Shown here in pieces: positions 10,465 to 31,447 of a stretch of DNA of 35,226 nucleotides. This stretch comes from a virus. The notes beneath the pieces are model-generated. The model was not told the DNA's origin, searched no databases, and was given only the letters and a program-made list of their open reading frames with translations. Every line of letters begins with the position of its first letter. Position 1 is the stretch's first letter. The stretch is from the IMG/VR virus record IMGVR_UViG_3300031576_000199, positions 1-35,226 of that record. One strand, given 5' to 3'. Made by a program: the position numbers and the translations under genes.

Positions 10465-11475
10465 ATGGCAAACACGCGGGAAATCCTGATCGGGTTCGGC
10501 AAGAAGAAGCAGACGAACATCACGACCGCGAACATCCTCGCGGACATCTGGCGCCTGAACAAGCTCAACGCCACCCTCGCCAGCCCGAAATACATCGCGG
10601 AGGACGACGCCGCGGAGCTCGGCAAGGGCCATGAGTTCGCGACGGCGACGTTCAAGTCGCACATCGAATCCACTGGGCACCAGCTCGAGAAGTACATATC
10701 GAGCGAGTTCGCGGCATGGTTGTTCTCGTTCGGGCTGGGCAAGGTCGTCAAGACCGGCGTGGGGCCTTTCACCTATACCTGCACGCCGCTGAGTCCTGTA
10801 GCTGATGGGCTCGAGCTGCCTTACTGGTCGTTCCTCGAGCAAATCCGCCCTGGCGCTACCGACGTGCGCGACATCATGCTGGTGGGTTGCGCGATCAAGA
10901 GCTTCCGGCTCCAGATTTCGAGTGGCCCGGGACGAGCGAACGCGCGGGCGACGGTCGAGTTCACTCACTCCGGCAAAATCACAGAGCCGTCTGCGATCAC
11001 GTTGCCAGCGGCCACCGCCGAAAACCTACTGAACGCCTACTCTCTCGCCTGTACGATCCTGGGCGTCGACTATGTGACGGCGAAGAACTTCGTGTCGCTC
11101 GAGATGGGCTGGGACAACGCCTTCCGCGATGGCTTCTACCCCGGCAGCGGCCAACAGGACGGCTACCAGATCCAGGGCCGCCTGGAGTCCGGCGACCGCG
11201 TCCCATTTCTGAACTTCGTGGCGCGGTACGTGGACGGGTCAACGGAGTTGCAAAAGGTCCGCGATCTCACGACTGGCACGGTGGTGATTGTGCTAACGAA
11301 GGACGCCAACAACAGCATGACGGTCACCTGGCACCAGGTTGGCTTCCAGGTCGCCGAGGTTGGCGACGCCGACGGCCTGGTCACCGTCTCGGTCACGGGA
11401 AAGCCGCAGTACCACGCGACCAACGGCGTCGTCTCGGCGGTTGTGGTGACCCCCGTCGACGCGATCGCGCAGTGA
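10465..11475 (+). CDS. major tail (tube) protein
   Basis: This 336-residue, beta-rich protein is the expected building block of the tail tube. It follows the terminator and precedes the chaperone pair, which in siphoviruses defines the tube gene. Sequence features include MANTREILIGFGKKKQTNIT, a central block with GHQLEKYISSEFAAWLFSFGLGK, and an extensive Val/Thr-rich C-terminal half (VVIVLTKDANNSMTVTWHQV). The strong AAGGAGAG lies 9-12 bases before ATG 10465. Compared with lambda gpV (246) it is longer, which fits a tube protein of another family with an added domain. Confidence 0.8.
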   Translation: MANTREILIGFGKKKQTNITTANILADIWRLNKLNATLASPKYIAEDDAAELGKGHEFATATFKSHIESTGHQLEKYISSEFAAWLFSFGLGKVVKTGVGPFTYTCTPLSPVADGLELPYWSFLEQIRPGATDVRDIMLVGCAIKSFRLQISSGPGRANARATVEFTHSGKITEPSAITLPAATAENLLNAYSLACTILGVDYVTAKNFVSLEMGWDNAFRDGFYPGSGQQDGYQIQGRLESGDRVPFLNFVARYVDGSTELQKVRDLTTGTVVIVLTKDANNSMTVTWHQVGFQVAEVGDADGLVTVSVTGKPQYHATNGVVSAVVVTPVDAIAQ

Positions 11476-11485
11476 GGAGAGCCAC

Positions 11486-12145
11486 GTGTTCGATACCAAG
11501 TGCGACATCGACGTGACGATTGCGGCCGGAGACGTCCGCAAAGTGGCAACGGTGCGGTTCCCGACGGATGCAGAATGGGCGGATCGTGCGGCCGCACAGA
11601 GAACGGTGATCCGGTCCATCGGCAGGGGCCGGTCGGAGACCGAGATTCTGAACGGCGCGGAGGTCGATCGGGAGCTCTTCGTCAAGATCCTGTTGTCGGA
11701 GAACGCGGCTGCTTTCGATGACGCCGAGGCTTCGGCGGTCATCGGGCGGATCGCGCGCTGCGAAGCCGGAGAAGCGGAACACGACGGCAGTCAGGTCCGC
11801 ATTCCGCTTAGCACGGCAGCCGGCGACACGACGCACTTCATGAAAGTGCCGAGCCAGAAACAGGTCCTCGATTACGGCAAGGCGGCCGTGAGGCTGGTCG
11901 AAGGCCGGCACCGGCAGGAGCTGCGATTAAACGTGGTCCCGGCCGGCACGCTCTACGATGCGCTGGTCGCGGCGCCGGCCTGCAATAGCTCACTGGGGCC
12001 GGCTTACGTCGACGGCGTCGTCCCGATCATCCACAAGCAGGCCGTCATCGCGGAGCTGGTGCGATCGATCAAGGAAACAGAGGACGAACCGGGAAACTTG
12101 CAATTCCGGCCGTCTGGCCGGACCAACCCAGCATCTGGTTCCTGA
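11486..12145 (+). CDS. tail assembly chaperone, gpG-like (short product)
   Basis: The 219-residue product is read in the zero frame and stops at TGA 12143-12145. It starts MFDTKCDIDVTIAAGDVRKV with FPTDAEWADRAAAQRTVIRS, as in other siphovirus tape-measure chaperones. The GAGGAGAGCCAC site precedes GTG/ATG-type initiation at 11486. Its role would be to coat the tape measure protein before tube polymerisation. Near its end lies a -1 slippery heptamer that diverts some ribosomes into the downstream frame, giving a longer G-T product. Confidence 0.8.
   Translation: MFDTKCDIDVTIAAGDVRKVATVRFPTDAEWADRAAAQRTVIRSIGRGRSETEILNGAEVDRELFVKILLSENAAAFDDAEASAVIGRIARCEAGEAEHDGSQVRIPLSTAAGDTTHFMKVPSQKQVLDYGKAAVRLVEGRHRQELRLNVVPAGTLYDALVAAPACNSSLGPAYVDGVVPIIHKQAVIAELVRSIKETEDEPGNLQFRPSGRTNPASGS
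12091..12122 (+). promoter_or_regulatory. programmed -1 frameshift signal (GGGAAAC plus hairpin)
   Basis: GGGAAAC at 12091-12097 is phased as G GGA AAC in the zero frame of the chaperone gene, the classic X XXY YYZ arrangement; lambda G-T uses GGGAAAG. Seven bases downstream, TCCGGCC (12105-12111) pairs with GGCCGGA (12116-12122) across a GTCT tetraloop. This is a perfect 7-bp stem at the right distance to stimulate slipping. Translation continues from CTT 12097 in the -1 frame, which is open to 12423. Confidence 0.85.
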
Positions 12146-12423
12146 TCCGCAAGGCCCTTCGCAAAGACGAACTTTGCCTGGGCGTGACGATCTGCCCGGA
12201 TGCGCACGACGGCGAGCGTTGCCAGGAGTGTCCGCTTTCAAGCTTCGAGGCCGCGATGAGCAGCCCCTTAGGGGAAGACCTTTCGAGGATTGTGGACCTC
12301 GATTTCGCGCTCCGCGCCGGCTTCACGATAACGCTCGATGACATCGCGGCCGACGACTTTGCAGCGCTGCAAATCCTCCACGCGGAACGCGACAAGATCC
12401 AAGGGGAAAAACTGAAGCAATGA
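12097..12423 (+). CDS. tail assembly chaperone extension, gpT-like (-1 frame)
   Basis: After the slip the fusion continues for 108 codons, giving a G-T protein of about 312 residues. The extension reads LAIPAVWPDQPSIWFLIRKA, then CLGVTICPDAHDGERCQECP and a helical end (DFAALQILHAERDKI). The CPDAHDGERCQECP block could bind a metal. A GTG at 12184 is in this frame, but conserved-looking sequence starts well upstream of it, so the frameshift and not that GTG explains the frame. Its stop overlaps the next ATG. Confidence 0.8.
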   Translation, partial: LAIPAVWPDQPSIWFLIRKALRKDELCLGVTICPDAHDGERCQECPLSSFEAAMSSPLGEDLSRIVDLDFALRAGFTITLDDIAADDFAALQILHAERDKIQGEKLKQ

Positions 12424-15400
12424 AACGCGCCCTCTCGCTGCTCCTCCTGTTCGCGTCCCAGTTGCTCGGGGCCGGCACGAGGATTCAGGACACGCTCCGG
12501 TACCCCGATGGAACCGTGGCCAGCGGCTCGGCCGAGATTTCTCTGTTCACGCCGTTCACCACGCCGGGCTTCATCCCCACCGCGGCCAGCAAGATCATCG
12601 CGCCGATCACCGCCGGCGTAATCGATGTCACCCTGGAGCCGAACGACACAGCCGTCCCCGCCGGCACCAGCTACCAGGTTCGCTTCATCCTCACAAAGAC
12701 GGCCGTTTACAGCGGCGCCTATCTTCAATACTGGATTGTTCCCACCTCCGGCAGCATCCTGAAGATCAAAGATGTGGCGGTGGCGTCGAGTCCCACGCCA
12801 GCTCTCACCATTACCCTTCCCCAAATCAGCACGCTCGGCGCCGTCAAGGGCGACCTGATCGCCTTCGGGACGTCCTGGTCGCGGTTCCCAGCCGGGCCCG
12901 ATGGCCAGTGCATGGTCGCCGATTCTACCCAGGCGCTGGGCTTGAAGTACGCGGTTTGCGGGGCCGGGGGCGGCGCTCCGACCGCAGCGACATATATCAC
13001 TCAGACCTGCGACGCCACCTTGACGGCGGAGCAATGCTTGTCTGCTCTGGCGACCGGCATCCTCAAGTCTACGACCATAACCGGCATCGTCTCGATAGCG
13101 GCAGCCGCCGATCTGCCGACGCACGCCTCACGGCACCAGAACGCCGGGAATGATGAGGTGGCCCAAGCGGCCGCAGGCGCCAACGCCATCCCGAAGGCCG
13201 GAGCAGGAGGGACGCTGGCGGCTGGATGGGTAGCTGAGGTTCTGAGCGTCACCGAACTTAGTACCTATATTGCCGCCAGCGGTTCGGGTACCGATGCGAT
13301 CCGGGCGACGATCACCGCGCCGGCGGCATTGCACTTTCTGGCCTGGGACGCTGGTACGACGAACTGGGTTAACCGCGTGCTGGCCGACGCGGATGTTCCA
13401 GACAGTATAATCCTGACTAATATTACGCAGATCACCAACCGGGCGATCGCTGATACAACCGGTACCCTGCTTGAAGCACGCGGAGGCACAGGAGAATCAG
13501 CCTATGTCTTGGGCGACACATTGTACTCGGACGCCGCGAACAGTTTGGCGAAACTCGCCGGAAACATCACCGCCGCGAAACAATTCCTGACGCAGACAGG
13601 CACAGGGGCGGTGTCTGCAGCACCGGTCTGGGCGGCGATCCTCGACAGCGATCTGCCTGCTTCAATCACGCGCGACACAGAGGTCAACGTCCAGGGCACC
13701 GCGAACGAAATCACTTCCAGCGGTTCGGGTGTAGCGCCAGTTCTCTCGATTGCGGCGGTCCTGAATCTAGCAGGGAAAGTTCTCTCGGGCGGATCGCCGC
13801 TCGTCCTCGAGGGCGCGACGACCGATGCCAACGAGACGACCGTGGTGGTTACGGACCCGACCGCCGCCCGGACGTTCACGCTGCCGAACGCCAACAGCAC
13901 GGCGATTCAACCATTGACGTGCGGTGGGACCGACAAGGTTTCGGCGGTGTCGGCGCTCGGCGTCATCACCTGCACGGCGGACTCTGGCGGGGCGGGCGGC
14001 GATAACATCACGGTCAACGGGACCGCCGCCACGGATGCGAACTTCATCACGCGCGCGGCCACGGGCACTTTCCCTTCCGTCACGCCACAACTCAACACCA
14101 CACCAAGCCCTGACGAGATCACATTCGATGTCGGAGCCGTCAGCGCCACGACCGCCGGCGTGCTCACCACCGGGGCCGACACCATCGCTGGCGCGAAAAC
14201 CTGGACCGGGGCGGGCAAGTACGACGAGGTAGCGTTGACGATCGAGCGCTCCAACGCCCTGTTGACAAATCCCGACGGTTTGGTGCTGGATAACCCCACC
14301 GCAGCAGACACTACCAATACTCGCCAGTTTTCACCGTGCGTCGAATGGAAGGGTTCGGCCTGGAAATCCGATGCAACAGCCGAATCCCGCACCGCCTTCA
14401 TGCGGGGCTGCAACCAACCGCTGAACGCCACAAACCAGATAGGCGTGCAAATGGTTTGGGAAGGAAAACGCTCAAATGATGGCTCCTACTCGACGCTCAT
14501 GGAGTGGGAAGTATCTAACACGCACCATGTCCGAATGTTCGGAAAAAGCACGCAATCGAGCGCGGTACTCGGAGTCCGCAGTGGCTTGAACAGCGGCTCC
14601 TATGGCTTCGGTCACGAGACTAACGATACAACGGTCCAGATGTATACCTGGGCACAGTCCACAGGTACCCCGTCGGCTTGGATGGGCATTGCCACGAATA
14701 CAGGGTCTTTCATTCTTTACGCTGGTAGCACGGACAGCGGTGGCTTCCGCTTGGACCAAAACGGCAACATCGGTATTGGCGGCGAGGCTTGGACGAGCAA
14801 TACCCCGGATGGCACGGTCCACATCAAGCACACTGGCGGCGCAGTCACGACCGTATTCATTGACGCTTCTTCGTCTCAAGGAACGAACGCCCTATTAACG
14901 TTCCGCGACAACTCTGAAGCGTCTTTATCGAAGGTTGACGAGGATGGCACCTTCGTTTTCGACAACGGCGCGACCGCGGCTCAAGGCATCCTGCTCTCGA
15001 TGGCGCAGCCAGGAGCCGCCGGGCAGCGCGATTCCCACTGGCTGGAGCTGACTGGCACGTCGTTCGACACTTCCGGCCATGACGCCGACTGGCGCTGCTT
15101 CGTGGATGTGACCTCAGACGCCGCAGCTTCGACCTTCACCTGCCAGAGCCGCATCGACGCGGCGGGCTTCGCCACGCGCTGGACGGTGACGGACGCCGGG
15201 CTGCTCAACGCTACGACACTAACCGAGGGCGGAAACGCAGTTCCGAACGCCACGGATCATCTTGGCTTCTTCGCGGCCACGACCTCGGCACAACTCGCTG
15301 GCGTGATCTCGAATGAGACCGGCTCCGGCCTCTTAGTCCTTGCAACCAATCCCACGCTGACCGACGTAACGGTAGACGATCTCATCACCTTCAACGAGAC

Positions 15401-16598
15401 GGCGGGAGACGCGGCCTGCGCCGCCGGAGACTACTGGCTCAAGGGCAACTCCACGACCGCGAAGATGCGGGGCTGCGAGAACGGTACGGCCTTCAACCTG
15501 AACGCCGCCGCCGGGGCTGCCAACTGGGAAACCCTTGCAAACAGCGCGAATACTGCGACTACATACCTGTCGAACAACACGGCCGAGACCGTGGATTTCC
15601 AGCTTCAGGCCGCCTTTACGACGGGCATCCAGTTCGGCATCCGGCAAAACACCGGCAACCCTACGGGCGGAACACTGTTCGCGGTAACCGCCGCTGATCC
15701 CGATCCGGTTGTTTCCTTGTTCCAGCGCGCCGTCGATGGGGTTACAGTCCTGGTGACCGTCGAGAACTCCCAGGCCAACGCCGCCACCTCGGTCAACGAG
15801 ACCGCCGACATCCGGGGGCTGTTCGCAGGCCTGGAGGCTGGCCTGATCCGGTTCGGCAAGACTGAGGACTACACGGTCGCCGCGAACGAGTCGAGCTTCA
15901 TCGCCTTCCTGACGCGGACGGATGGGACGACTGCCGAGGCCGGCCGATTCCTGCTGAACGGCGTGCTGGATGTGGCGACAGGATACCGGATCGGGGGCGC
16001 AGCAGCCAGCAACAACGTACTGATGGGTAACGGGACGAACTTCGTCTCGCAGGCCATCTCGATGGCCGCCCTACCCGCCAACATCAAGAAGGGGACCATC
16101 ACCTTCGCTCCCGGCGCAGCCACTTTTCCCGATGACTCCACCAACAACATCGGGGCAACGCTCAACTGGCGGAAGTCGAGCGCCGCCGCCCCATCGCCGT
16201 TTTGGACTGAGCTACTGTTCTCAACGCTCGATTATGCGGACTGGCAGTTTCGGGTCCCGGACGACTACGGGACTTCCCCGGTGTGCGAGTTCTTCTACAA
16301 GATGGTCTCCGCGACCACCAACAACGTGGCGTTCTCCTGCGCCCTGGCCTGCATCACGCCGGGCGATGCGACAGACGTGGACGCCGACGCCATGGCTACC
16401 GCCAACAGCAGCGCGGATAACACGGTGCCCGGTACGGCGGGACATGAGAAGAAAGTCACCGTCTCCGCGACAAACGACGATTCGATGGCCGCCGGTGATT
16501 TGTGCATTCTCAAGGTTCGCCGGATCACTCCTTCAGGCACAGACGCGACCGGGGATGCCGAGGTGCGCATGGCTGCCCTTACGTACACGAGGAACTGA
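12420..16598 (+). CDS. large fibre-like protein with Sec signal peptide
   Basis: A 1392-residue protein. The N-terminus MKRALSLLLLFASQLLGAG is a typical signal peptide (Lys-Arg, then a Leu-rich core). It is followed by TLRYPDGTVASGSAEISLF, a carbohydrate/beta-sandwich-like opening often seen in phage fibre N-termini. Further on come LPTHASRHQNAGNDEVA (a common tail-fibre motif) and LLEARGGTGESAYVLGDTLY with TQTGTGAVSAAPVWAAI, the usual fibre repeat, then long Ser/Thr/Ala-rich beta sequence. A C-terminal jelly-roll-like region is FPDDSTNNIGATLNWRKSS... to the end. Paired cysteines occur throughout (for example CMVADST...YAVCG and TCDATLTAEQC). The signal peptide is unexpected for a virion fibre, since virions assemble in the cytoplasm. 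Overlap with the chaperone stop is ATGA. Confidence 0.7.
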   Translation: MKRALSLLLLFASQLLGAGTRIQDTLRYPDGTVASGSAEISLFTPFTTPGFIPTAASKIIAPITAGVIDVTLEPNDTAVPAGTSYQVRFILTKTAVYSGAYLQYWIVPTSGSILKIKDVAVASSPTPALTITLPQISTLGAVKGDLIAFGTSWSRFPAGPDGQCMVADSTQALGLKYAVCGAGGGAPTAATYITQTCDATLTAEQCLSALATGILKSTTITGIVSIAAAADLPTHASRHQNAGNDEVAQAAAGANAIPKAGAGGTLAAGWVAEVLSVTELSTYIAASGSGTDAIRATITAPAALHFLAWDAGTTNWVNRVLADADVPDSIILTNITQITNRAIADTTGTLLEARGGTGESAYVLGDTLYSDAANSLAKLAGNITAAKQFLTQTGTGAVSAAPVWAAILDSDLPASITRDTEVNVQGTANEITSSGSGVAPVLSIAAVLNLAGKVLSGGSPLVLEGATTDANETTVVVTDPTAARTFTLPNANSTAIQPLTCGGTDKVSAVSALGVITCTADSGGAGGDNITVNGTAATDANFITRAATGTFPSVTPQLNTTPSPDEITFDVGAVSATTAGVLTTGADTIAGAKTWTGAGKYDEVALTIERSNALLTNPDGLVLDNPTAADTTNTRQFSPCVEWKGSAWKSDATAESRTAFMRGCNQPLNATNQIGVQMVWEGKRSNDGSYSTLMEWEVSNTHHVRMFGKSTQSSAVLGVRSGLNSGSYGFGHETNDTTVQMYTWAQSTGTPSAWMGIATNTGSFILYAGSTDSGGFRLDQNGNIGIGGEAWTSNTPDGTVHIKHTGGAVTTVFIDASSSQGTNALLTFRDNSEASLSKVDEDGTFVFDNGATAAQGILLSMAQPGAAGQRDSHWLELTGTSFDTSGHDADWRCFVDVTSDAAASTFTCQSRIDAAGFATRWTVTDAGLLNATTLTEGGNAVPNATDHLGFFAATTSAQLAGVISNETGSGLLVLATNPTLTDVTVDDLITFNETAGDAACAAGDYWLKGNSTTAKMRGCENGTAFNLNAAAGAANWETLANSANTATTYLSNNTAETVDFQLQAAFTTGIQFGIRQNTGNPTGGTLFAVTAADPDPVVSLFQRAVDGVTVLVTVENSQANAATSVNETADIRGLFAGLEAGLIRFGKTEDYTVAANESSFIAFLTRTDGTTAEAGRFLLNGVLDVATGYRIGGAAASNNVLMGNGTNFVSQAISMAALPANIKKGTITFAPGAATFPDDSTNNIGATLNWRKSSAAAPSPFWTELLFSTLDYADWQFRVPDDYGTSPVCEFFYKMVSATTNNVAFSCALACITPGDATDVDADAMATANSSADNTVPGTAGHEKKVTVSATNDDSMAAGDLCILKVRRITPSGTDATGDAEVRMAALTYTRN

Positions 16599-17008
16599 TG
16601 CTCTTGATTCCCCTATTTCTACTCTGCGCTTCGCTGGCTACGGCTCAGAGCCGTCCATCAGTTAAGTTCCGGGCCACGTTCGCACCGAATGCCACCGGCT
16701 TGACCCGCGCCAATACCGTGAGCACCGACCTTTCTGCCTGGCTGCTAGGCAAGACCTACATGATCCGCAATCCCGCGACCATTGCAATCAATGAAACCGG
16801 ACGCCGGGAGATCAACGCATTTCTCCAACTTTCAGCGGCTGATGCCCTTGCCCTCAAGACCTACATCGAGAGCCGGTTGGCAACATGGCGTGCCGACGCG
16901 GGAAGCGTTGATCTACATTTCCATCACTGTCCGGCGGATGGGCAGTTCAAGGACTGGGAGGGTTGTGAGCGTGATCCCAGGGCCGCTTTCCAAAGGATCA
17001 TACAATGA
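16598..17008 (+). CDS. exported protein of unknown function
   Basis: The start is ATG 16598, coupled as TGATG to the fibre gene, with GAGGAAC just before it. The in-frame GTG at 16502 lies inside the fibre gene and would bury the signal. The 136-residue product begins MLLIPLFLLCASLATAQSRP, a signal peptide with a likely cut between Ala16 and Gln17. The mature part holds a globular domain (NPATIAINETGRREINAF, ALALKTYIESRLATWRADAG) and a Cys pair in HHCPADGQFKDWEGCERD. No family recognised. It continues the series of exported products after the fibre. Confidence 0.7.
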   Translation: MLLIPLFLLCASLATAQSRPSVKFRATFAPNATGLTRANTVSTDLSAWLLGKTYMIRNPATIAINETGRREINAFLQLSAADALALKTYIESRLATWRADAGSVDLHFHHCPADGQFKDWEGCERDPRAAFQRIIQ

Positions 17009-17844
17009 TGCCGCGACGGATATCCGAGTGGTGGGTGGTGGCTGTCGCTTTTTGCGTTCTCGTGTTCTTGTGTGGCGCCGCATGGGCAGCCATCGATTTT
17101 GACGGCTTAGATGACGTTCTGGATTGCGGTAGCGCGTCGTCCCTGGACGACATTTCGCCGCTAACCTATTCAACGTGGGTGAATATCGACACGTCCGGGG
17201 AGGGCAGCTTCGGGCGTTTCTTCGATAAAACCACAATCCGCTTTCTCATCAATCAGAATTCGGCGAACCAACTCACGTTCGGACATGTCACAACGGGTAC
17301 AGCCTTGGACAGATCCACGACGGCTAACCCAGTGGCATTCGATAGTTGGCATCATGTTTTATTCACTTGGAATGGCGGCCTCTTGTGGTCAGGAGTTCAC
17401 ATTTACATAGATGGCACGGAAGCCTTATACGCGGGAGGAACGGACGGCACTGGGTCGCTGTCAAGTGATGCGGCCGACAATCTCTTGCTGGGGAATCGGG
17501 CGGCAGGCGACCGGACGTTTGATGGGATGTTTGCGGACACAGCGATGTGGGCCGCCGTGTTAAGCGCCGATGAAATCTCTCGGCTTGCGCTTTCGCGGCG
17601 CACGCAGATCCCACTTCAGATCCGTCCCGCTGACCTGCGGCTCTACGTGTCGATAACGGAATTTTCTGACGGCGTTACGGCCAGCGGCACGGGAGCGATC
17701 CGGGATCGTAGCGGAAATGGTAACCACTGCACGCCGACCAACAGTCCTGTTGGCCGCGCCCAGCCCCTGGGCATCCAAGGCGTAGCCTGGCTGCGATCCC
17801 CGATCACCGTACCGTGGGCGCTTGCTGCGAGGGTTGTGTGGTGA
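17005..17844 (+). CDS. exported LamG/concanavalin-like domain protein
   Basis: The 279-residue protein starts MMPRRISEWWVVAVAFCVLV and has a probable cut after AWA at residue 28. The mature part is a LamG-type (concanavalin A-like) sandwich: IDFDGLDDVLDCGSAS, LTYSTWVNIDTSGEG, ANPVAFDSWHHVLFTW, VHIYIDGTEALYA, ADNLLLGNRAAGDRTFDGMF and TAMWAAVLSADEISRLA. The last two are the familiar 'G.F.G.iDevriynraLsaeEI' ending. Such domains bind glycans or other surfaces. The C-terminal tail (DRSGNGNHCTPTNSPVGRAQ) is also common in phage LamG proteins. ATG 17005 overlaps the previous stop. Confidence 0.75.
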   Translation: MMPRRISEWWVVAVAFCVLVFLCGAAWAAIDFDGLDDVLDCGSASSLDDISPLTYSTWVNIDTSGEGSFGRFFDKTTIRFLINQNSANQLTFGHVTTGTALDRSTTANPVAFDSWHHVLFTWNGGLLWSGVHIYIDGTEALYAGGTDGTGSLSSDAADNLLLGNRAAGDRTFDGMFADTAMWAAVLSADEISRLALSRRTQIPLQIRPADLRLYVSITEFSDGVTASGTGAIRDRSGNGNHCTPTNSPVGRAQPLGIQGVAWLRSPITVPWALAARVVW

Positions 17845-17845
17845 A

Positions 17846-17923
17846 ATGAGCGCCACGCACCAATTCGACGAGAAGCTGTTCGACGAGGCGCTGTTCGACG
17901 AGGGGCCGGTGGTCATCCGATGA
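17846..17923 (+). CDS. 25-residue FDE-repeat peptide
   Basis: ATG 17846 to TGA 17921-17923 encodes MSATHQFDEKLFDEALFDEG followed by PVVIR. It starts 1 base after the LamG stop and ends in an ATGA overlap with the LuxR-like gene, so both ends are coupled. At DNA level it is built from 15-base tandem units TTCGACGAGnnGCTG at 17864-17908. Short phage peptides with FD-rich repeats exist next to fibre genes, but I know no assigned function. It might be a small acidic adapter or only a coupling leader. Confidence 0.55.
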   Translation: MSATHQFDEKLFDEALFDEGPVVIR

Positions 17924-18318
17924 CTAGCACCATTCGGTTTAGCCCACGACAGAAGCAAGTCGTGTTGCTTTTCGGGGATGGCTTGACCATTGACCAGATC
18001 GGAGCGCGTCTCCAGATTGACCCCACAACATGCAGGGTCTACCTCCGAGCCGCGTTCGAGAAGTTGCGATCTAAAATCGAGGCGCCGGAACTAACCAAGC
18101 GCGAGCGCGAGTGCCTGGAGTTGTATGCGGGCGGCCTGAAGGTAAAGGGGATCGCCCGCAAGCTCGGCCTAGGCATTCGCACCATTGATACCCATCTACA
18201 AAAAGTGCGCGACAAGACCGGGATTCACAACGCCGCCGGATTAGGCGCCGCTTGGCAGCGGGGGCTTGCTGCGCCTAAGCGCGGGGAGTCGGTTCAGGAG
18301 ATGGTTATCTTGGGATGA
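17920..18318 (+). CDS. regulator with two tandem LuxR-type HTH domains
   Basis: This 132-residue protein consists of almost nothing but two LuxR/GerE-type units. Unit 1 (about residues 7-51) is FSPRQKQVVLLFGDGLTIDQIGARLQIDPTTCRVYLRAAFEKL. Unit 2 (58-116) is LTKRERECLELYAGGLKVKG followed by IARKLGLGIRTIDTHLQKVR and the end AAWQRGLA, which is close to canonical. There is no receiver or autoinducer domain. It may bind adjacent or direct-repeat sites as a monomer with two heads. It lies between exported-protein genes with 4-base overlaps on both sides, an odd place for a transcription factor and a hint that it controls the surface-protein island or host genes. Confidence 0.8.
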   Translation: MTSTIRFSPRQKQVVLLFGDGLTIDQIGARLQIDPTTCRVYLRAAFEKLRSKIEAPELTKRERECLELYAGGLKVKGIARKLGLGIRTIDTHLQKVRDKTGIHNAAGLGAAWQRGLAAPKRGESVQEMVILG

Positions 18319-18332
18319 TGGAGGCCAAGGTG

Positions 18333-19058
18333 ATGAAGCAGCTTATCGTTTTTCTGGCGGCGATGGTCGTCGCCGCCGCACAGATTACGACTCGCACTCA
18401 CTCTGCCGGCTCCAAATCGTTCCCGGTTGCGGTGACGGTCAAGGCCATCACATGCTCCCTGGGCGACGGCGGCGGGCCATCTGGCGGGACAGCGATCATC
18501 GACTTAGTTTGCGATTCTCCAACGCGACAGCCTTCCGGCTTGCAAGTCACGATCAATCACCCGCCAGGCCTCACGGTAGTCGATGTCGCCCCTGGGCCGG
18601 CAACTACTACCGCCGGCAAGACGATCAGTTGGAAGTCGGTTGATACGGGATCGGTTCTTGTTGCCTGGAGCATGAGCGCCACGACAATCCCGAACGGCGT
18701 CGTGGCGCGCGTAACATTCAGCATCGCAGGAACGGCCACCGGCACGGCCACCGCAACCCTGCGTGAGGTCATAGCGGCAAATGCCGCCGGTTCCCCGATC
18801 CGCTCCACTGCCGCCGCGGGTGGAGGCGTAATCACCATCTCCGCGCCCGCCGTAGAGCTGGCCGGAGCGTCTTGCACTCCCACCACCGTCACAGCAGGCG
18901 ATGCGGTGACCTGCACGGTCAGGTTGACCGGCGCGGCTCCGGCTGGCGGCTTCGTCGTGAGCGTCACTACCTCTGATCCGACGATTGACACCGTACCGCC
19001 CACCGTGACGGTCCCCGCCGGCGCGACTACAGCGAGCTACGCAGGGACGACGAAATGA
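18333..19058 (+). CDS. exported cohesin-like / Ig-like protein
   Basis: I place the start at ATG 18333 (MKQLIVFLAAMVVAAAQITT), which gives a clean signal peptide with an AAA-Gln junction and a GGAGG about 12 bases upstream. ATG 18315 (which overlaps the previous gene) is the alternative and would add six residues. The first mature domain (LQVTINHPPGLTVVDVAPGP ... NGVVARVTFSIAG) resembles a cohesin-type sandwich. The second, from about residue 170 (GASCTPTTVTAGDAVTCTVR ... VTVPAGATTASYAGTTK), resembles the Ig-like repeats frequent in acidobacterial secreted proteins. It stops abruptly, as if the last strand is missing. Confidence 0.65.
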   Translation: MKQLIVFLAAMVVAAAQITTRTHSAGSKSFPVAVTVKAITCSLGDGGGPSGGTAIIDLVCDSPTRQPSGLQVTINHPPGLTVVDVAPGPATTTAGKTISWKSVDTGSVLVAWSMSATTIPNGVVARVTFSIAGTATGTATATLREVIAANAAGSPIRSTAAAGGGVITISAPAVELAGASCTPTTVTAGDAVTCTVRLTGAAPAGGFVVSVTTSDPTIDTVPPTVTVPAGATTASYAGTTK

Positions 19059-19378
19059 CCATCCCTCTCCTGTGGCGTATCCGCGAAACGTTGCGGAGAG
19101 TTGTGTCTGTCGTAAACGGCAAGCTCCTGGTCGTCATGGCGCTCGTGCTGGCAACTACGGTCTCTATGTGGATGACGAACCGGTACCGCGATTCCCAGGG
19201 GCATCGCCGGGACGCCGCCATTGAGGCCATCGCTGACCTCCAGGCCGAGCTTGCGGAGGGCCGCATAGCCGCTCTCCGGGAACTTGCAGAGGCGCATAAG
19301 ATCATCATCGGCCAGAACCGCGAGATTCTGGATAACCAGCGAACCATTCTCAGCCGCCTCTCGGGAGGTCAGCGGTGA
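19055..19378 (+). CDS. single-pass membrane protein with coiled coil
   Basis: The 107-residue product has a basic N-terminus (MTIPLLWRIRETLRRVV), one membrane segment (KLLVVMALVLATTVSMWMT, about residues 23-41) and a long charged helix to the end (RDAAIEAIADLQAELAEGRI and on). This N-in, periplasmic-coil layout fits an i-spanin or a similar accessory lysis protein, but membrane chaperones and phage exclusion proteins look alike. It overlaps both neighbours by 4 bases. Confidence 0.6.
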   Translation: MTIPLLWRIRETLRRVVSVVNGKLLVVMALVLATTVSMWMTNRYRDSQGHRRDAAIEAIADLQAELAEGRIAALRELAEAHKIIIGQNREILDNQRTILSRLSGGQR

Positions 19379-19635
19379 ACGGCATACCTCCCTGGTTCGG
19401 TCAGGTCTTCGGTTTCGCGGTGACGCTCTGCGCGGTCGTATTCCTCAACCGCTGGCAGATCCGAGCCTTGGAAACCAGCGCCCACACTCTCTCCGAGAAG
19501 TTTGAGGAATTGCGCGACAAGGTAGATGAGAGGTTCAACGACTTTCAGCGGCAAATCACCGCGCTACGTGAAATCGTCATCGCGTACAGGGCCGAACGCG
19601 AGGCCATCGAACGCCTGCGCGGTAAAGGAGTCTGA
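19375..19635 (+). CDS. second small membrane / coiled-coil protein
   Basis: A GTG start at 19375, overlapping the previous TGA, opens an 86-residue protein with one membrane segment (FGQVFGFAVTLCAVVFL, about residues 8-24). It is followed by a heptad-rich coil (LSEKFEELRDKVDERFNDFQ ... EREAIERLR). The architecture duplicates that of the preceding gene, so the pair may form a complex. Holin or spanin-type roles are possible. No lipoprotein partner (o-spanin) is seen nearby. Confidence 0.6.
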   Translation: MNGIPPWFGQVFGFAVTLCAVVFLNRWQIRALETSAHTLSEKFEELRDKVDERFNDFQRQITALREIVIAYRAEREAIERLRGKGV

Positions 19636-19683
19636 CGTACGGATCATCATCTATTCCCAACCGGCGGCGAATCCCGCGGCGAG

Positions 19684-20085
19684 TTGATCGCGGCGGCGCT
19701 CATCGTCGCGCTGATCCAGTTCGCCAAGAAGCGCGGCTGGATCGCGGACCAAGCCAAGCGCTTGCAGGCCGCGCTCGGGTGGATCACAGCGTTTGCGATG
19801 AGCTTCGGCGTGCACTTCACGTTCTCCGGCTCGCTCGAATGCGGCGGGAGCGCCGGGGTAGTCTGGCCGGGCTTGACAGAGCTGGCCCACAACTCCACCA
19901 ACTTCGCGTGGGCGCTGATCTCCCAGAAGGGCTGCTACACGCTGGCCCGGATTCCCGATCTGCTGCGGTCAACCGTCGTGCAGATGGTTGCTTTTCAGAA
20001 GGGCGCGCCGCTCGGTACCTTGACGGACTCGAAACTCAGCGACCTCATTAAGTCGATGAATCTGCCGGGGATGCCGGTCAAATAA
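19684..20085 (+). CDS. holin-like membrane protein, unknown function
   Basis: The frame is open from 19636, but the first standard start is TTG 19684, without a clear ribosome-binding site; an unusual start in 19636-19680 cannot be excluded. The 133-residue product has two hydrophobic segments, IAAALIVALIQFA near the N-terminus and LGWITAFAMSFGVHFTFSG around residues 31-49. Cys residues follow in SLECGGS and QKGCYTL. It ends 7 bases before the tape measure gene. Two-segment proteins of this size beside coiled-coil membrane proteins suggest a lysis cassette, but no endolysin is adjacent. Confidence 0.5.
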   Translation: MIAAALIVALIQFAKKRGWIADQAKRLQAALGWITAFAMSFGVHFTFSGSLECGGSAGVVWPGLTELAHNSTNFAWALISQKGCYTLARIPDLLRSTVVQMVAFQKGAPLGTLTDSKLSDLIKSMNLPGMPVK

Positions 20086-20092
20086 AGGTCGC

Positions 20093-22888
20093 ATGCCCGC
20101 AAACGCAAGGCTCCAACTCTCGATCGAGGCAGATGCCTCTCAGGGTAACACCGAAGTCAAGAAGTTCAACGTCTCTCTCAAGGGCCTCGGCGAGGTCGGA
20201 CACGCCGCGGGGATCCGCGCCGGCGGCGCGCTGGAGGGCCTGACCACCAAGATCATCGCCGGGGCGACGGTCGCCAACACGCTCTCCGCGGTGTTCCGCA
20301 AGCTCGCGGTCGAGGTCAAGAATCTGGTAGTCGGCTTCGGCAACCAGTCGGAGGAGATGCTCAACCTCGCCGACAGAACAGGGTTCACCGTGAAAGAGGC
20401 GTTCGAGTTTTCAGCCGCCGCGCGCGTCATCGGGACCGACCTCGGCACGATCGTGCCGTCGATGAAGAAACTCTCCGAGGCGCTGGCCGGCGCTGGAGAC
20501 GAAGGGAAGGAGGCGCGCCAGATTCTCAAGCTCCTCGGAATTGACATGCGGGATCTGGGGCGCACCGGGAGCGTCACGGGCGATTTGATGCTCGAGCTGG
20601 CGAAAAGCATCAGGGGGTTGTCGGTGCCGGAGCAGCGACTCGCGCTCGACAAGCTCCTCGGGCGGGGCGCTGGCGAGCAGCTTCCCTTCTTCAAGCAACT
20701 CCTGGAGGTGTTGCCGCAGGTCCGCGCGGCCGGGGCGGGCGCGCTGGCCGACATGGCGGAAAAGGCGACGCAGTTCGATGATGCGCTGGATTTGTTGGCG
20801 GAGAGCTGGAAGTCTCTGAGCGCGATCCTCAACAAAAAGATCGTCGGCATCATCGAGGTGCTCGCCCCAGACTTCGTTAAGTCTGGACCGGGCCGGGGGA
20901 ATTTGGGGCTTGGGATCGCCCAATTCTTCGACCCGAGGAGCGTGAGCCATCTCGTGCAGCGACCTCGGCCCGGAGCCACGCTCACGCTACCGAGCGAGCA
21001 GGACATAAACGCGGCTGCGGCGAGGCGAGGGCTGGGCGACAGAATCCTGGCCGCCGAGAAGGCGGTGGAAGCCTCGAAGAGAGCCATCGCCGCCGAGAAG
21101 CAGACCAGCCAGATCCTGCTCGCCGCGAAGAAGGGCGAGCTCGACGCGGTCGGCAAGATCGTCCTGGAGTACCAGCAATACCGGAAGGAACTCGGTTTGT
21201 CGGCGCAGGCCCTCCGCGATCTGGCGGAAGCCGAGGAGATCAGCATTGGCGCGGAGCGGGCGAAGGAGCTGCGGGAGGCTACGGCCGCTGATCTGAAATC
21301 CCTTGTGGAGCGCGACGAGGAGCGGAGGAAGCTCGTCGAGATGGCCTTTGAAGAAGAGCAGCAGCTCCGCCGCGAAACCCTGGAGATCGGAATCTCTCAG
21401 TACGACGACTTCATCCGGGAGCAGATTCGCCTCGCCGAGGTGCGGCGCGACCGGGAACTCGGGGCGCTCGAGCTGGTCAACACGCGGACGATCGCCGAGA
21501 GGACCGCGATCGAGGACCAGAAGTTCCTAATCCAGGAGCAGGCCATTCGGAGAATCACCGACCTCGAGCTCGCCGCGATCAAGAGCCGGGCGCGGACCGA
21601 GATCGCGCTGTTGGAAGCCGTCGCGCTCAGCAGGCAGGACCTCGCTGGGGCAGCGATGGACAAGATCGCCGCCATCCAGAGGGTGACCGACCAACAGGCG
21701 GCAACTGAAAGCCTCAAGGCCGATGACGCCGTGGCGGCCGCCCGCCAAGCTGGCCAGATCCGGCAGGCTACAATCATCCGGGACTCGAACGAGCGGGTCT
21801 TCTCTCACCTCAAGGACGTCTCGGGTCGGGTGTTCGACGCCATGCTCCAGCGCGGTGAGAGCGTCTGGAACGTCTTTAAGAACGCCGCCCTCACGGCGCT
21901 GCGGGAGATCGTCACCAGCACCGTCGCGCGGTCGCTGATGCAGCTCCTGGGGGGCGGTGGCGGCCAGCTCGCCGGCGCGGGCGCCGGAGGCGGGCGCTTC
22001 GGGGGCCTCGGCGGCCTCCTTGGAGGGTTAGGCTTCGGAGTGCCCGCCATCGGTCCCGGTGGAACCGCGCCGTTCAATCCCAACGCTGGTACTGGAATCG
22101 GAGGGGCGCTTCCGCGCTTCGGCGGCATTAGGGACTTCCTGGGGCTGAGCCAGGCCGCTCAGTTCGGGGGTGGCGTCAGCGGCGCGCTGGGTGGCGCCCT
22201 GTCGTCACCGTTGGCAGGTCTGGCGGGCATCGGTCTGTTCGCGAGCGGGTTCCGCCGCGGCGGCGTGGCCGGGCTTGGCCTCAGCGTGGGCGGCGGGTTC
22301 CTGGCCGGCGCGAGCATCGGGTTCGCAATCGGGGGACCTTTCGGCGCGGCGCTCGGGGCGATCATCGGGACCGGCGTGGGTCTGATCTCCGGGTTGATCG
22401 GCCTGTTCCGCAAGTCCGCAGAACAAAAGGCGAAAGAGAAGATCAAGAGCCTCTATGGCCTGACGATCAGCACCCAGTTCGCCAAGCAGATCGTCGAGAT
22501 CGCCCGCAGCGTCTTCGGGGGTAACCTCGATATGGCCGTCAGGAGCACCCAGGTGCGCGAGCTGCTCGAGCTCTGGGCTATGGCGACCAGCCAGACCTTC
22601 GGGGCGGGGGTCCCGCGGCCGACCGTCTCGACCTTTGGGCTGTCGTCTGGCCGGCTGCTTCAGATCAGTGGCGGCTCGGCCACCGCGGCGCCCGGGATCG
22701 GCGGAGGCGGCGCCGGCGCGGTTGTCCTCGATCTCGACAATGCGCGGCTCAGAATCGAGGGCATGGAGACGGCGATCCTGGAGGGCGCCCGAGTTGTCAG
22801 CAAAGCAGTCGCGCGGTCGTTCGAGGGCAGCTCTGGCCGCCGGCAGAGCGCGGCGCTGACATTCGCCCCGAGCACGATCACGGATTGA
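20093..22888 (+). CDS. tail tape measure protein
   Basis: The 931-residue protein sets tail length. The N-terminal part (ARLQLSIEADASQGNTEVKK ... LKGLGEV) is typical for tape measures, as is the helical stretch with EEMLNLADRTGFTVKEAFEF. Residues 320-580 are long charged helix (EKAVEASKRAIAAEK, ELREATAADLKSLVERDEER). From about 610 to 790 there is a Gly/Ala-rich membrane-active-looking segment (LLGGGGGQLAGAGAGGG; GGFLAGASIGFAIGGPFGAA). The end returns to a small domain ending SALTFAPSTITD. ATG 20093 follows AAAGGTCGC. In lambda this gene follows the G-T chaperone directly; here 7.7 kb separate them. Confidence 0.9.
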   Translation: MPANARLQLSIEADASQGNTEVKKFNVSLKGLGEVGHAAGIRAGGALEGLTTKIIAGATVANTLSAVFRKLAVEVKNLVVGFGNQSEEMLNLADRTGFTVKEAFEFSAAARVIGTDLGTIVPSMKKLSEALAGAGDEGKEARQILKLLGIDMRDLGRTGSVTGDLMLELAKSIRGLSVPEQRLALDKLLGRGAGEQLPFFKQLLEVLPQVRAAGAGALADMAEKATQFDDALDLLAESWKSLSAILNKKIVGIIEVLAPDFVKSGPGRGNLGLGIAQFFDPRSVSHLVQRPRPGATLTLPSEQDINAAAARRGLGDRILAAEKAVEASKRAIAAEKQTSQILLAAKKGELDAVGKIVLEYQQYRKELGLSAQALRDLAEAEEISIGAERAKELREATAADLKSLVERDEERRKLVEMAFEEEQQLRRETLEIGISQYDDFIREQIRLAEVRRDRELGALELVNTRTIAERTAIEDQKFLIQEQAIRRITDLELAAIKSRARTEIALLEAVALSRQDLAGAAMDKIAAIQRVTDQQAATESLKADDAVAAARQAGQIRQATIIRDSNERVFSHLKDVSGRVFDAMLQRGESVWNVFKNAALTALREIVTSTVARSLMQLLGGGGGQLAGAGAGGGRFGGLGGLLGGLGFGVPAIGPGGTAPFNPNAGTGIGGALPRFGGIRDFLGLSQAAQFGGGVSGALGGALSSPLAGLAGIGLFASGFRRGGVAGLGLSVGGGFLAGASIGFAIGGPFGAALGAIIGTGVGLISGLIGLFRKSAEQKAKEKIKSLYGLTISTQFAKQIVEIARSVFGGNLDMAVRSTQVRELLELWAMATSQTFGAGVPRPTVSTFGLSSGRLLQISGGSATAAPGIGGGGAGAVVLDLDNARLRIEGMETAILEGARVVSKAVARSFEGSSGRRQSAALTFAPSTITD

Positions 22889-22892
22889 AGCT

Positions 22893-23294
22893 ATGCCAGG
22901 GTCGGTTGCCAGCGCCGTGCCGACGACAGTGCTCCCGCAGAGCCTGTCGAGGAGCTTCGACCACGAGCGCGAGTTCCCGGTCGTCGGCAACGAATACCGC
23001 AACGGCGAGAGCCAGAGGTTGTTCCTGGCGGCGAGCAGCCGTAAGCGGTGGCGCCAGGCCAAGCGGCTCACCGCGGCGCAAATGGCCACGCTGCGCAGCT
23101 TCTATCTGGCCCGCAAAGGCCCCCAGGAGCCGTTCTATATCTACGATCCATGGGACACCTCACCGAAGTTCTCCTGGGATGCGACTGGCGTGGCCACAGT
23201 CGGACGCTACACCGTGCGTTTCGGTGGCGCCTTCGAGCAGGTCATGGCGATCGGCCGCGGCGAGGTGTCGATCGAGATGATCGAGATCGCCTGA
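22893..23294 (+). CDS. distal tail protein, gpM-like
   Basis: This 133-residue protein contains FPVVGNEYRNGESQRLFLAA, RKRWRQAKRLTAAQMATLRS, FYLARKGPQEPFYIYDPWDT and GRYTVRFGGAFEQVM. These are hallmarks of the small minor tail family that occupies the gpM position and binds the tape measure end (also similar to DUF2460-type distal proteins). It starts 4 bases after the tape measure stop. A second copy of the same kind of domain is fused at the front of the 1321-residue protein downstream. Confidence 0.7.
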   Translation: MPGSVASAVPTTVLPQSLSRSFDHEREFPVVGNEYRNGESQRLFLAASSRKRWRQAKRLTAAQMATLRSFYLARKGPQEPFYIYDPWDTSPKFSWDATGVATVGRYTVRFGGAFEQVMAIGRGEVSIEMIEIA

Positions 23295-27879: not shown

Positions 27880-29463
27880 ATGTTGAGAACTCTCTGCATC
27901 TTGCTGATAGTCACGGGCGTGGCTTGCGCCCAGGCATTCGACCAACGCATGAGGACCCTGACGCTCTCGCCGCGCGGCACGGGAGCGGGCCAGACCGGAC
28001 AGGCCTGCTTTGAGGAATTGCGCGCGAATGGGACGAACACCGCGTGCCTGAAGGCGCCCGACAGCTTGAGCGCCACGATCGGATGGTCGTTGCCGAGCTC
28101 GGATGGAACCAACGGTCAGGTGCTCACGACGAATGGGGCAGGGGCCCTGTCTTGGAGTTCTGGTGGTGGAAGCGGCACAACCATTACCGTCAACGGATCG
28201 CCTTTGGCCGCGACGAGCGCCGACTTCGACGATTCCACCCCGGCCGCGCCGGCCAACAAATACAACGTCAAGTGGCAGAAGGACGCCCTCACGCCCACCA
28301 ACATCTCCGCCTACGTCGATCCAACGCTGTTTGTGACGCCGACCTGGGGATCGGGATCGACCCTGACCTGGACCTTCGACGATGGAGTTAACGATCTGGT
28401 GTTGGCGTTCAGCAGTGGAGCGTCCGGCCAAGGCATCATGGCGGTTCAGGGGCAGATCAACTCCCGAAACATCTACCCTGATACCGATGCGGCCTATCAG
28501 CTAGGACAACTGCCGAGTTTGCGGTACGCCAGTGCGGCGATCAACGCCATCGATCTCGGCAAGGCTTCCGCCACCGTGGGCGTTCTCAATATCTACCACA
28601 GCGCCGTGGGCGGAACCGCGACCATACGCGGCGGCAATGTGACGGCTTCAGGATCGGACATCGAGTTCGTCCTTCCTACCAGCGCCGCCATCTACCCCAG
28701 CGCCGACAACGCTTTCAACAACGGTTTGGCCACCCGCCAGTGGGGCAATACCTATTCGGCGCGGTTTACTGCCAGCACCGATCCGGCTTCGGGCAACGAG
28801 TTGACGCGGCGCTCTTACAACGACTCGACCTACGGGCGGTTAGCTGTAGCGAACACCTGGACGGCCGGTCAAACGTTCAATGCCGCACTCGCCATCAATG
28901 CTACGGCAACCGGGCGTTCGTGGTTTTTCGCTGCCAACAATACCTACGCCATCGGAGATGCCGTCAACACAGCCATCGAGATCAACTCCAACATTTTCAA
29001 AGCGGGACAAACGGGAACGACACTCGGGCAACTATGGCTACGTGACGAACTCGGCGGGACTACCTTCATCATGCGCGGTGTTGGTGGTGCAGCAGATATC
29101 GATGGTAATCTGATCCCCAAAACTGATCTCAATCACGCTATCGGGACAGCTGGTCGCCGCTTTAGTGATCTCCGCGTCAACACTGCTACTTTTTCTGGAG
29201 CCGTTACATTCTCATCTACCATTGCCGTAACAGGAGCCTCCACGTTCACGGGCGGCACAACCCACAACGGCGGTCTACAAACTGGATCGAGCGCCAATTC
29301 GACGCTCTACATCGGCGGAAGCGGCAACTTCTACACCCGGACCTTTTCCGGCGGCGATGTCAGTTGCGGCGGCGTAACGGATGGATGGATGGGGGTCAGG
29401 ACGGACACCAACGAGCTTCAGGTTTGCATCGGCGGCGTAGTAAAGAAAGTGGCCCTGGCATGA
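27880..29463 (+). CDS. second fibre-like protein with signal peptide
   Basis: I start at ATG 27880 (after AAAGGGTGAGGCTTGAA), not the in-frame ATG 27847 inside the hub gene, because this yields a signal peptide MLRTLCILLIVTGVACAQAF with an ACA-Gln junction. The 527-residue protein is fibre-like: DGTNGQVLTTNGAGALSWSS, then four copies of a trimeric-fibre motif. These are near residue 196 (IYPDTDAAYQLG), 270 (IYPSADNAFNNG...RQWGNTYSARF), 353 (NTYAIGDAVNT) and 409 (LIPKTDLNHAIGTAGRRFSD). Cys pairs (QACFEELRANGTNTAC; DVSCGG...LQVCIGG) fit an oxidising compartment. It sits where lambda has its side-tail-fibre genes. Confidence 0.7.
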   Translation: MLRTLCILLIVTGVACAQAFDQRMRTLTLSPRGTGAGQTGQACFEELRANGTNTACLKAPDSLSATIGWSLPSSDGTNGQVLTTNGAGALSWSSGGGSGTTITVNGSPLAATSADFDDSTPAAPANKYNVKWQKDALTPTNISAYVDPTLFVTPTWGSGSTLTWTFDDGVNDLVLAFSSGASGQGIMAVQGQINSRNIYPDTDAAYQLGQLPSLRYASAAINAIDLGKASATVGVLNIYHSAVGGTATIRGGNVTASGSDIEFVLPTSAAIYPSADNAFNNGLATRQWGNTYSARFTASTDPASGNELTRRSYNDSTYGRLAVANTWTAGQTFNAALAINATATGRSWFFAANNTYAIGDAVNTAIEINSNIFKAGQTGTTLGQLWLRDELGGTTFIMRGVGGAADIDGNLIPKTDLNHAIGTAGRRFSDLRVNTATFSGAVTFSSTIAVTGASTFTGGTTHNGGLQTGSSANSTLYIGGSGNFYTRTFSGGDVSCGGVTDGWMGVRTDTNELQVCIGGVVKKVALA

Positions 29464-29984
29464 GCGACTGGCGCAGCCTGGCAGCGAATTTCTCGGTTGA
29501 TCTCGTCGGCCAGCCGGACGACCGCCTTGGAACCTGGGGCTTGGCCGAGGCCGCGCTGAATGAGATCACCTTTAGCCATCGCCCGCCAGAGAAGCACGTC
29601 GTAGAGATCGGCGGGGTCTTCGGAACTCTTGACGCCCGCATCCGGGAAGTTTTGCGGATGGAGGATGGCGGCCAGCAGGTCATGGAAGTCGCATCCTTCG
29701 AGGGTTGCGGGTTCCTGTTCGGCCTATTGAGCACGGCACCGGGCGGGAGCGTGCAAGCGTACCCGGCAGCCGACAACTGCTGGCTCTATCTCCAGGGCAA
29801 CGTGACCGGCGAGCAGCCGAGCATAAGCTTGCCGATCGCGCACAACCCGTTGCGGACGGTGTTCGCCTTGGAGCGTGACGGGAAGCTGGTCATCAAGTTC
29901 GCCGTGTACCTCAAGGACTTCCATAACCCGGTGCACCTGGAAGCGAGTTTCGTGTTAGAGTACCGTTTCAGGAGAACAACATGA
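29460..29984 (+). CDS. unknown protein following the fibre gene
   Basis: ATG 29460 overlaps the fibre stop (ATGA) and gives 174 residues; the longer GTG-started frame from 29364 lies inside the fibre gene. It starts MSDWRSLAANFSVDLVGQPD and continues LNEITFSHRPPEKHVVEIGG, GVFGTLDARIREVL and FVLEYRFRRTT. No signal peptide, no recognised family. Position after a fibre suggests a fibre chaperone or tip accessory protein, by analogy only. Confidence 0.65.
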   Translation: MSDWRSLAANFSVDLVGQPDDRLGTWGLAEAALNEITFSHRPPEKHVVEIGGVFGTLDARIREVLRMEDGGQQVMEVASFEGCGFLFGLLSTAPGGSVQAYPAADNCWLYLQGNVTGEQPSISLPIAHNPLRTVFALERDGKLVIKFAVYLKDFHNPVHLEASFVLEYRFRRTT

Positions 29985-30370
29985 GGAAGTTTTGTTTTAT
30001 GATCGCGGTTTGTTTCACGTGGAACGTGCTGGCGCAGGAGAGCGCGCCGCCGGCGAAGGCGGCCGAAGAGAAGCCGGTGGGCGCGGCGAGCGCCAAGGCT
30101 GACAACCGTCCACCCGCGGTGACCCCGGAACAGAAGGCGCTGCTCTGGGAGGCTCGCGCGAACATTCTCCAGATCGAGCAGGGCTTTGACCGGCTGCGGG
30201 CGCAGTTCAAGGACTGGAGCGACCGCCAGCAAATCGTTCTGAGGCAACTCGATCTCGAAGCGCGCCGGGCGGCCGGATGGGAGCTAGACCCGAAGCTCGA
30301 ATGGGCGAAGATCGCCCAGCCGGCCGCGGCCAACGGCCCGCCGGCGAAGCCGAAAGATGCGCCTCGCTGA
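29981..30370 (+). CDS. small exported helical protein
   Basis: The 129-residue product starts MRKFCFMIAVCFTWNVLAQE, a signal peptide with a VLA-Gln junction. After an Ala/Pro/Lys-rich linker comes one long helix (QKALLWEARANILQIEQGFD ... RQLDLEARRAAGW) and a Pro-rich end. It resembles small periplasmic coiled-coil proteins, and an o-spanin-like or envelope spacer role is conceivable. Unknown family. It is the last gene of the late block and overlaps its predecessor by 4 bases. Confidence 0.7.
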   Translation: MRKFCFMIAVCFTWNVLAQESAPPAKAAEEKPVGAASAKADNRPPAVTPEQKALLWEARANILQIEQGFDRLRAQFKDWSDRQQIVLRQLDLEARRAAGWELDPKLEWAKIAQPAAANGPPAKPKDAPR

Positions 30371-30429
30371 GCCGTCATCGGCGGTTGAGCGAAGAAAGGA
30401 GGCCGCTGCGGCAATACCTTGAAGAGCCT

Positions 30430-30471
30430 GGTTCGGGCGCGACCCACTCACGGGAGGCCGCGCCCCGAACC
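30430..30471 (+). terminator. strong hairpin after the late operon
   Basis: GGTTCGGGCGCG (30430-30441) pairs with CGCGCCCCGAACC (30459-30471) with one bulged base, forming a 12-bp stem around a 17-base loop. It sits 60 bases after the last late gene. There is no directly adjacent T run (ACCTTTTAG follows only at 30521), so it may be a weak intrinsic or Rho-assisted terminator. Confidence 0.45.
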
Positions 30472-30582
30472 ACAACCGACTGCCCAAAAAGGCAACCCGA
30501 CGGCTTCAGCTCGGGCGCTGACCTTTTAGAATCAATCACCTACCTCGAATTATTAAATTCTGTTCATGAACGCAGATTCCGC

Positions 30583-30611
30583 TTGACACCTTCCGGGAGT
30601 GGGCGCATAAT
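30583..30611 (+). promoter_or_regulatory. sigma70-type promoter of the early region
   Basis: A perfect TTGACA -35 hexamer (30583-30588) and CATAAT (30606-30611) are separated by exactly 17 bases. They lie in an AT-richer pocket of otherwise GC-rich DNA. The expected start point is near 30618, just before the palindrome. This is the best promoter in the window and would drive the micro-gene and recombination operon. Confidence 0.8.
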
Positions 30612-30622
30612 CTGAGGCGCTG

Positions 30623-30642
30623 TTTAGTTAACATTAACTAAA
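30623..30642 (+). promoter_or_regulatory. perfect palindromic operator
   Basis: TTTAGTTAA (30623-30631) and TTAACTAAA (30634-30642) are exact inverted repeats with a CA spacer. The site begins about 5 bases after the expected transcription start and ends 13 bases before the first ATG, so a bound repressor dimer would block the promoter. The Cro/YdaS-like protein encoded at 30829 is the obvious local candidate. Confidence 0.75.
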
Positions 30643-30655
30643 AACTGGGGGAAGT

Positions 30656-30826
30656 ATGGCGAAAGACGAGAGGGAACGGAAGCGGAACGCGGTGCAGGCC
30701 GCATGGCGGGCGCTGGTGCTGGTGGTGCCGATGCCCAGAGATGAGGAGGAGACGAAGGACAGGTGGTGTGCGGCCGCTTCTGAATTGCTCGTCGCGGCCT
30801 TCCCGGAGTACCTGGGGCAGGGTTAG
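30656..30826 (+). CDS. small early protein, unknown function
   Basis: The first gene after the promoter-operator. ATG 30656 follows GGGGGAAGT, and TAG is at 30824-30826. The 56-residue product starts MAKDERERKRNAVQAAWRAL and has a helical, basic N-terminus with a Trp-Cys containing second helix (KDRWCAAASELLVAAFPEYL). No family recognised. Small basic phage-early proteins often bind host factors. Confidence 0.6.
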   Translation: MAKDERERKRNAVQAAWRALVLVVPMPRDEEETKDRWCAAASELLVAAFPEYLGQG

Positions 30827-30828
30827 GC

Positions 30829-31162: not shown

Positions 31163-31165
31163 GCC

Positions 31166-31445: not shown

Positions 31446-31447
31446 AA

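Follow-up and report, generated by a model that had tools for sequence, protein, structure and literature searches.

A signal-peptide-bearing fibre-like protein family and an accessory-gene slot in the tail module of a siphophage lineage

A previously undescribed family of tail-fibre-like proteins, the FIB1 family, is encoded in the tail modules of a lineage of related siphophages and has a signal-peptide-like N terminus in every known member, an unexpected and directly testable feature, unusual in that tail fibres are ordinarily assembled within the cell. In the virus analysed here, the FIB1 gene opens a multi-gene island between the tail assembly chaperone and the tape measure gene, a junction that comparison with relatives reveals as a newly mapped slot for defence genes and exported proteins of these phages. 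This part of the explanation, the slot and the family, is well supported. On balance, we also favour the wider explanation, in which a composite island in the accessory slot is expressed late and supplies a FIB1 protein exported through Sec, with receptor occupation as its preferred function. Acidobacteriota, the phylum with which the lineage is associated, abound in soil, and hardly any of their phages are in culture.

The window and its tail-module island

The window, meaning the whole stretch of DNA analysed, is an IMG/VR contig of 35.2 kb. Its head module is lambda-like (terminase, portal and protease–capsid fusion), and its tail genes run in the order major tail protein, G–T chaperone, island, tape measure, DUF2460-like protein, hub and fibre. 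Upstream of the terminase, positions 275–1198 encode a DUF3800 protein of low GC3 (0.63). The closest host identified, an Acidobacteria MAG, carries a related prophage (L032; 56% capsid identity), the sole one from a scan of genome contigs, and we infer that the soil virus represented by the window probably has its host among the Acidobacteriota. The features discussed are as follows.

10465..11475, + strand: major tail protein, left landmark and query for relatives (phrog_290, 6.6e-11)
11486..12145, + strand: tail assembly chaperone G, homologous and syntenic in relatives
12091..12097, + strand: −1 slippery heptamer G GGA AAC for the G to T frameshift, from sequence and correct phase
12184..12423, + strand: T part of the G–T chaperone, reached via the frameshift (relatives' T parts 44–62% identical)
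12420..16598, + strand: FIB1, fibre-like protein of 1392 aa that starts with a signal peptide; its conserved N-domain (aa 18–135) comes from family comparison
16598..17008, + strand: SP2, small signal-peptide protein for which searches gave no homologue (1-bp overlap with FIB1)
17005..17844, + strand: LamG-domain exported protein (PF13385, Laminin_G_3, 1.5e-22; 4-bp overlap)
17846..17923, + strand: 25-aa ORF with FDE repeats, QFDEKLFDEALFDEG (4-bp overlap with the LuxR-like start)
17920..18318, + strand: LuxR-like double helix-turn-helix regulator, GerE/sigma70 region 4-like (PF00196, 2.6e-20, two stretches)
18315..19058, + strand: Coh, cohesin/Ig-like exported protein (PF00963, 1.3e-3, below the curated cut-off; 4-bp overlap)
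19055..19378, + strand: TM1, one membrane segment and a coiled-coil-like tail, from sequence (4-bp overlap)
19375..19635, + strand: TM2, one membrane segment and a coiled-coil-like tail (weak Rz-like match, phrog_739, E = 0.041; 4-bp overlap)
19684..20085, + strand: TM3, small and partly hydrophobic, from sequence only (48-bp gap before it; TTG start uncertain)
20093..22888, + strand: tape measure protein, right landmark (phrog_8125, 1.7e-8)
22893..23294, + strand: DUF2460-like tail protein (PF09343, 3.7e-6, below cut-off)
27880..29463, + strand: FIB2, another fibre-like ORF that begins with a signal peptide, located after the hub, where the fibre gene usually lies
29981..30370, + strand: small exported protein after FIB2, with the signal-peptide-like N terminus MRKFCFMIAVCFTWNVLA followed by Q

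The T frame is kept in relatives, which supports the chaperone frameshift. Between this chaperone and the tape measure, the original prediction had placed eight genes and a micro-gene, all in one direction and mostly overlapping by 1–4 bases. Order and coordinates hold: the island (12420–20085, 7.7 kb, all on the + strand) comprises eight genes and the 25-aa ORF, which corresponds to the predicted micro-gene and is real as an ORF. FIB1 makes up more than half of the island, and its start (12420) shares the 4 bp ATGA with the T stop. An assembly artefact was rejected, as the independent contig L077 has an identical T/FIB1 join and the overlaps are exact.

The predicted LamG-like and double-LuxR products are borne out by the Laminin_G_3 match and the two GerE stretches, the regulator being one without a sensor domain, and the cohesin/Ig-like protein does find PF00963, but short of the curated cut-off. 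As for the three small membrane proteins that had been expected, TM1 and TM2 have one segment each, but TM3 lies below the membrane-segment threshold and had no family match in HMM searches. From its sequence, TM3 is possibly holin-like; TM1–TM3 together may be lysis or envelope proteins, with no convincing lysis homologues.

The chaperone–tape measure junction in related phages

Relatives were collected by major tail protein alignment in IMG/VR (113 confirmed, best 80 loci kept); the tape measure and LamG proteins, used as queries, returned no useful relatives. The junction was scored in the 67 loci in which T and the tape measure are both visible, which form 45 groups at 90% nucleotide identity. 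T and the tape measure lie at a distance of about zero in 22 of these groups and are separated by an insert of 0.3–3.8 kb in 20, with both states in the remaining 3. Because the two genes adjoin in some groups and flank an insert in others, with presence and absence at one site among close relatives as is characteristic of accessory insertions, we regard the junction as a slot in which this siphophage lineage keeps accessory genes. The arrangement in the window, missing from 22 of 45 groups, is therefore not the standard order.

At 7.7 kb, the insert in the window is the largest among the junctions compared. The inserts of relatives lie mostly on the opposite strand and often hold defence or toxin–antitoxin genes: a PIN/VapB-like pair (L128:10725-11441), HicA with an HTH protein (L086), TIR-TPR (L104:12097-15495), REase-ARP (L107:12100-12954), a STAND-type ATPase (L131:12102-13190) and an aspartyl protease (L135). 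In the tail operon of the L077 contig (G409), two genes named by eye lie between the DUF2460-like gene and the hub (reversed coordinates 28570–32887): one for a regulator of the FadR type, the other carboxypeptidase-regulatory/TonB-receptor-like, with a product of 1159 aa that has a signal peptide.

The FIB1 family and its signal peptides

Members of the FIB1 family share a conserved, β-rich N-terminal domain of about 110 aa, in which the motif LEPNDTA is invariant across the alignment, followed by exchangeable C termini. Searching IMG/VR with this N-domain yielded 26 loci, a number that includes near-identical copies and repeats of loci from the major-tail-protein set, and recognisable tail-module genes surround the match in 25 of them. 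The N-terminal ~160 residues of FIB1 are 63–66% identical to those of L077, which occupies the same slot, and of three members encoded after the tape measure (L079, L120 and L146); identity to further members, mostly located after the DUF2460-like gene, is 31–41%. A single type of C terminus is common to L077, L079, L120 and L146; FIB1 has another. In relatives, the DUF2460-like gene (hyp22893) is often directly flanked, before or after, by FIB1-type genes, which occupy four positions overall.

Position 1, between T and the tape measure: the window and its close relative L077
Position 2, between the tape measure and hyp22893: L079, L179-L182
Position 3, between hyp22893 and the hub: L185, L187-L190, L192-L198, L200, L202
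Position 4, after the hub: L186, L199, L201

This distribution identifies FIB1 as a gene of the tail module that ended up in the slot, and not as foreign cargo. Location in the tail module and the combination of conserved N-terminal with exchangeable C-terminal parts are both traits of siphophage tail fibres, and tail-fibre PHROG matches occur in relatives. The N-domain itself had no significant match in Pfam, PDB sequences or INPHARED, being absent from 50,697 phage records, and a PDB fold search likewise gave nothing significant; the structure models of the N-domain are of low confidence (pLDDT 65 and 56), and the faint fold similarity that they show to tail-fibre and minor tail protein domains is too weak to decide whether FIB1 is a virion fibre.

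Fibres of tailed phages normally have no signal peptide, their synthesis and assembly both taking place in the cytoplasm, and from this the family departs. A signal-peptide-like N terminus lies right before the N-domain in 26 of 26 viral-contig loci, and it is present in all 13 matches among 297 Acidobacteriota genomes, which is why we use the name fibre-like and not tail fibre. Across the 26 loci, the N-terminal hydrophobic 9-mer has a mean of 2.26–3.56 against 1.23–1.87 in the mature part, and identity between members is 28–63% in the signal region against 64–88% in the mature domain; this faster drift of the signal region is as expected of a true signal peptide. Misassigned start codons were rejected as the source, since all members show such an N terminus despite the drift. 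A lipobox cysteine is absent from the FIB1 signal, MKRALSLLLLFASQLLGA followed by GTRI.

For signal peptides we relied on inspection by eye and on simple scripts, not on a trained predictor. By eye and crude score they are convincing on FIB1, SP2, LamG and Coh, in agreement with the four exported island proteins originally predicted, and of these four a stricter script recovered all except LamG. With that script, 4 of 13 window ORFs of at least 150 aa were called, compared with 11 of 127 in the relatives' tail regions (Fisher p = 0.02, a rough value since the ORFs are not independent); the 11 consist of eight FIB1 family members, two internal starts in tape measures and one receptor-like cargo gene. 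The core head and tail proteins of the window are without a signal-like N terminus. On signal-peptide tail fibres or Acidobacteriota phages, our literature search found nothing to the point.

Most of the N-domain matches in Acidobacteriota genomes fall in a second phage-like cluster (L060, L061, L063-L072) that comprises a terminase, portal, adaptor and giant signal-peptide fibre-like gene and adjoins DUF3037-like and HipA-like genes, these last two named by eye. In L067, the terminase, portal and head–tail adaptor were confirmed by PHROGs.

Two other readings of the exported N terminus deserve consideration. FIB1-type proteins could be genuine virion fibres that undergo export and processing before they are added to the particle, either in the periplasm or on lysis. 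Their genes, placed by those for the tape measure, DUF2460-like protein and hub, together with the N-domain and its exchangeable C termini, the tail-fibre PHROG matches in relatives, the weak fold matches, and the signal peptide on the giant fibre-like protein of the second cluster, all speak for such a role, and the constant company of tail genes and the weak tail-fibre-domain similarity fit a virion part equally well. We nevertheless regard it as rather unlikely: fibre assembly outside the cytoplasm is not known to us from any tailed phage, and the relatives also encode a non-exported protein of about 1000 aa after the hub that could be the normal tip protein. Improbable, in our judgement, is that the N terminus is retained and serves as an anchor of the fibre in the virion or a membrane. 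The segment does stand at the same place before the N-domain in all members, but it begins with positive charge, continues with a hydrophobic core, has small residues ahead of the domain and drifts fast, all of them marks of a cleavable signal peptide, and nothing like it is present on the window's core head and tail proteins.

Probable island assembly, proposed mechanism and known systems

Behind FIB1, the island looks different. In the relatives' loci compared, SP2, LamG, the HTH protein, Coh and TM1–TM3 have no counterpart, bar a generic LamG match. SP2 has no match in 247 Acidobacteriota genomes, and the C-terminal domain of Coh matches 11 of the 247, including ORFs of 2000–5000 aa. GC3 is 0.63–0.71 for SP2, LamG, LuxR and Coh versus mostly 0.77–0.86 in the head–tail genes, with FIB1, TM1, TM2 and TM3 not clearly deviating. 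The overlaps, the lower GC3 and the absence from relatives suggest that the genes behind FIB1 are later, separate additions. A scan of the island for sigma-70 consensus sites found no promoter-like site, and terminator-like sites are at chance level, so we do not file the island as a classical moron; no Rfam elements were found. With no promoter found, late-operon expression is likelier than lysogenic expression, which the original prediction had entertained and which also sits poorly with genes chained to T by overlaps.

That prediction had further read the island as one coherent host-surface set rather than a virion part list. Its surface-cargo element is upheld in part by an accessory slot that about half of the relatives leave unfilled, a set rich in exported proteins and the matches of Coh to large Acidobacteriota ORFs; coherence is not supported, given a FIB1 family at home in tail modules and neighbours that look separately added. 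We accordingly give little credence to a single surface-remodelling cargo expressed from the prophage or early in infection, despite a gene chain that joins a regulator to four exported proteins and despite the FadR-type regulator with a large receptor-like gene in the neighbouring tail slot of a related contig, for FIB1 has its own tail-module history, the other genes are absent from relatives and no promoter was found.

In the explanation that we favour, an exported tail-fibre-like FIB1, found elsewhere in the tail module in other relatives, came into the slot, as comparison shows and as the close relative L077, which has it there too, bears out; genes for secreted and membrane proteins would then have been added behind it with starts overlapping stops, so that the late transcript would still reach the tape measure. 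Expressed late together with the tail genes, FIB1 would leave the cell by Sec through its signal peptide and bind a host-surface ligand with its exchangeable C terminus. We tentatively propose that, on infected cells and on the debris of lysis, it would thereby take up the phage's own receptor or coat, keeping competitors and released progeny from adsorbing to them, with LamG and Coh perhaps acting at the same surface; this preferred mechanism, taken alone, is clearly less secure than the explanation as a whole. At slightly below even confidence, we suggest more broadly that an Acidobacteriota siphophage fibre family travels through Sec and represents either the first tailed-phage virion part assembled on the periplasmic side or an exported receptor occupier.

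Among known systems, Lom of phage lambda, one of several exported products of tail operons, is likewise an outer-surface product of a tail-region gene; it is a single outer-membrane protein encoded after J, whereas FIB1 is fibre-like and encoded before the tape measure. Precedent for a phage protecting its own receptor with exported proteins comes from the superinfection-exclusion lipoproteins Llp (phage T5) and Cor (T1/phi80), which block that receptor; llp adjoins the receptor-binding gene pb5, and purified pb5 alone blocks infection too (PMC9586334, PMC13164509). Unlike these small lipoproteins, FIB1 is large (1392 aa) and fibre-like, is without a lipobox and lies in a tail-assembly slot, with no homology shown. 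The same junction takes an extra gene in Cluster O mycobacteriophages, where an HNH gene is present in some members and not in others (PMC4351075), although that is one homing endonuclease gene in place of the multi-gene exported set of the window. Finally, tab of phage JBD26 resembles the island as an extra gene placed among late genes, and differs as a late-operon moron that is a small defence gene expressed constitutively from the prophage (PMC10884400).
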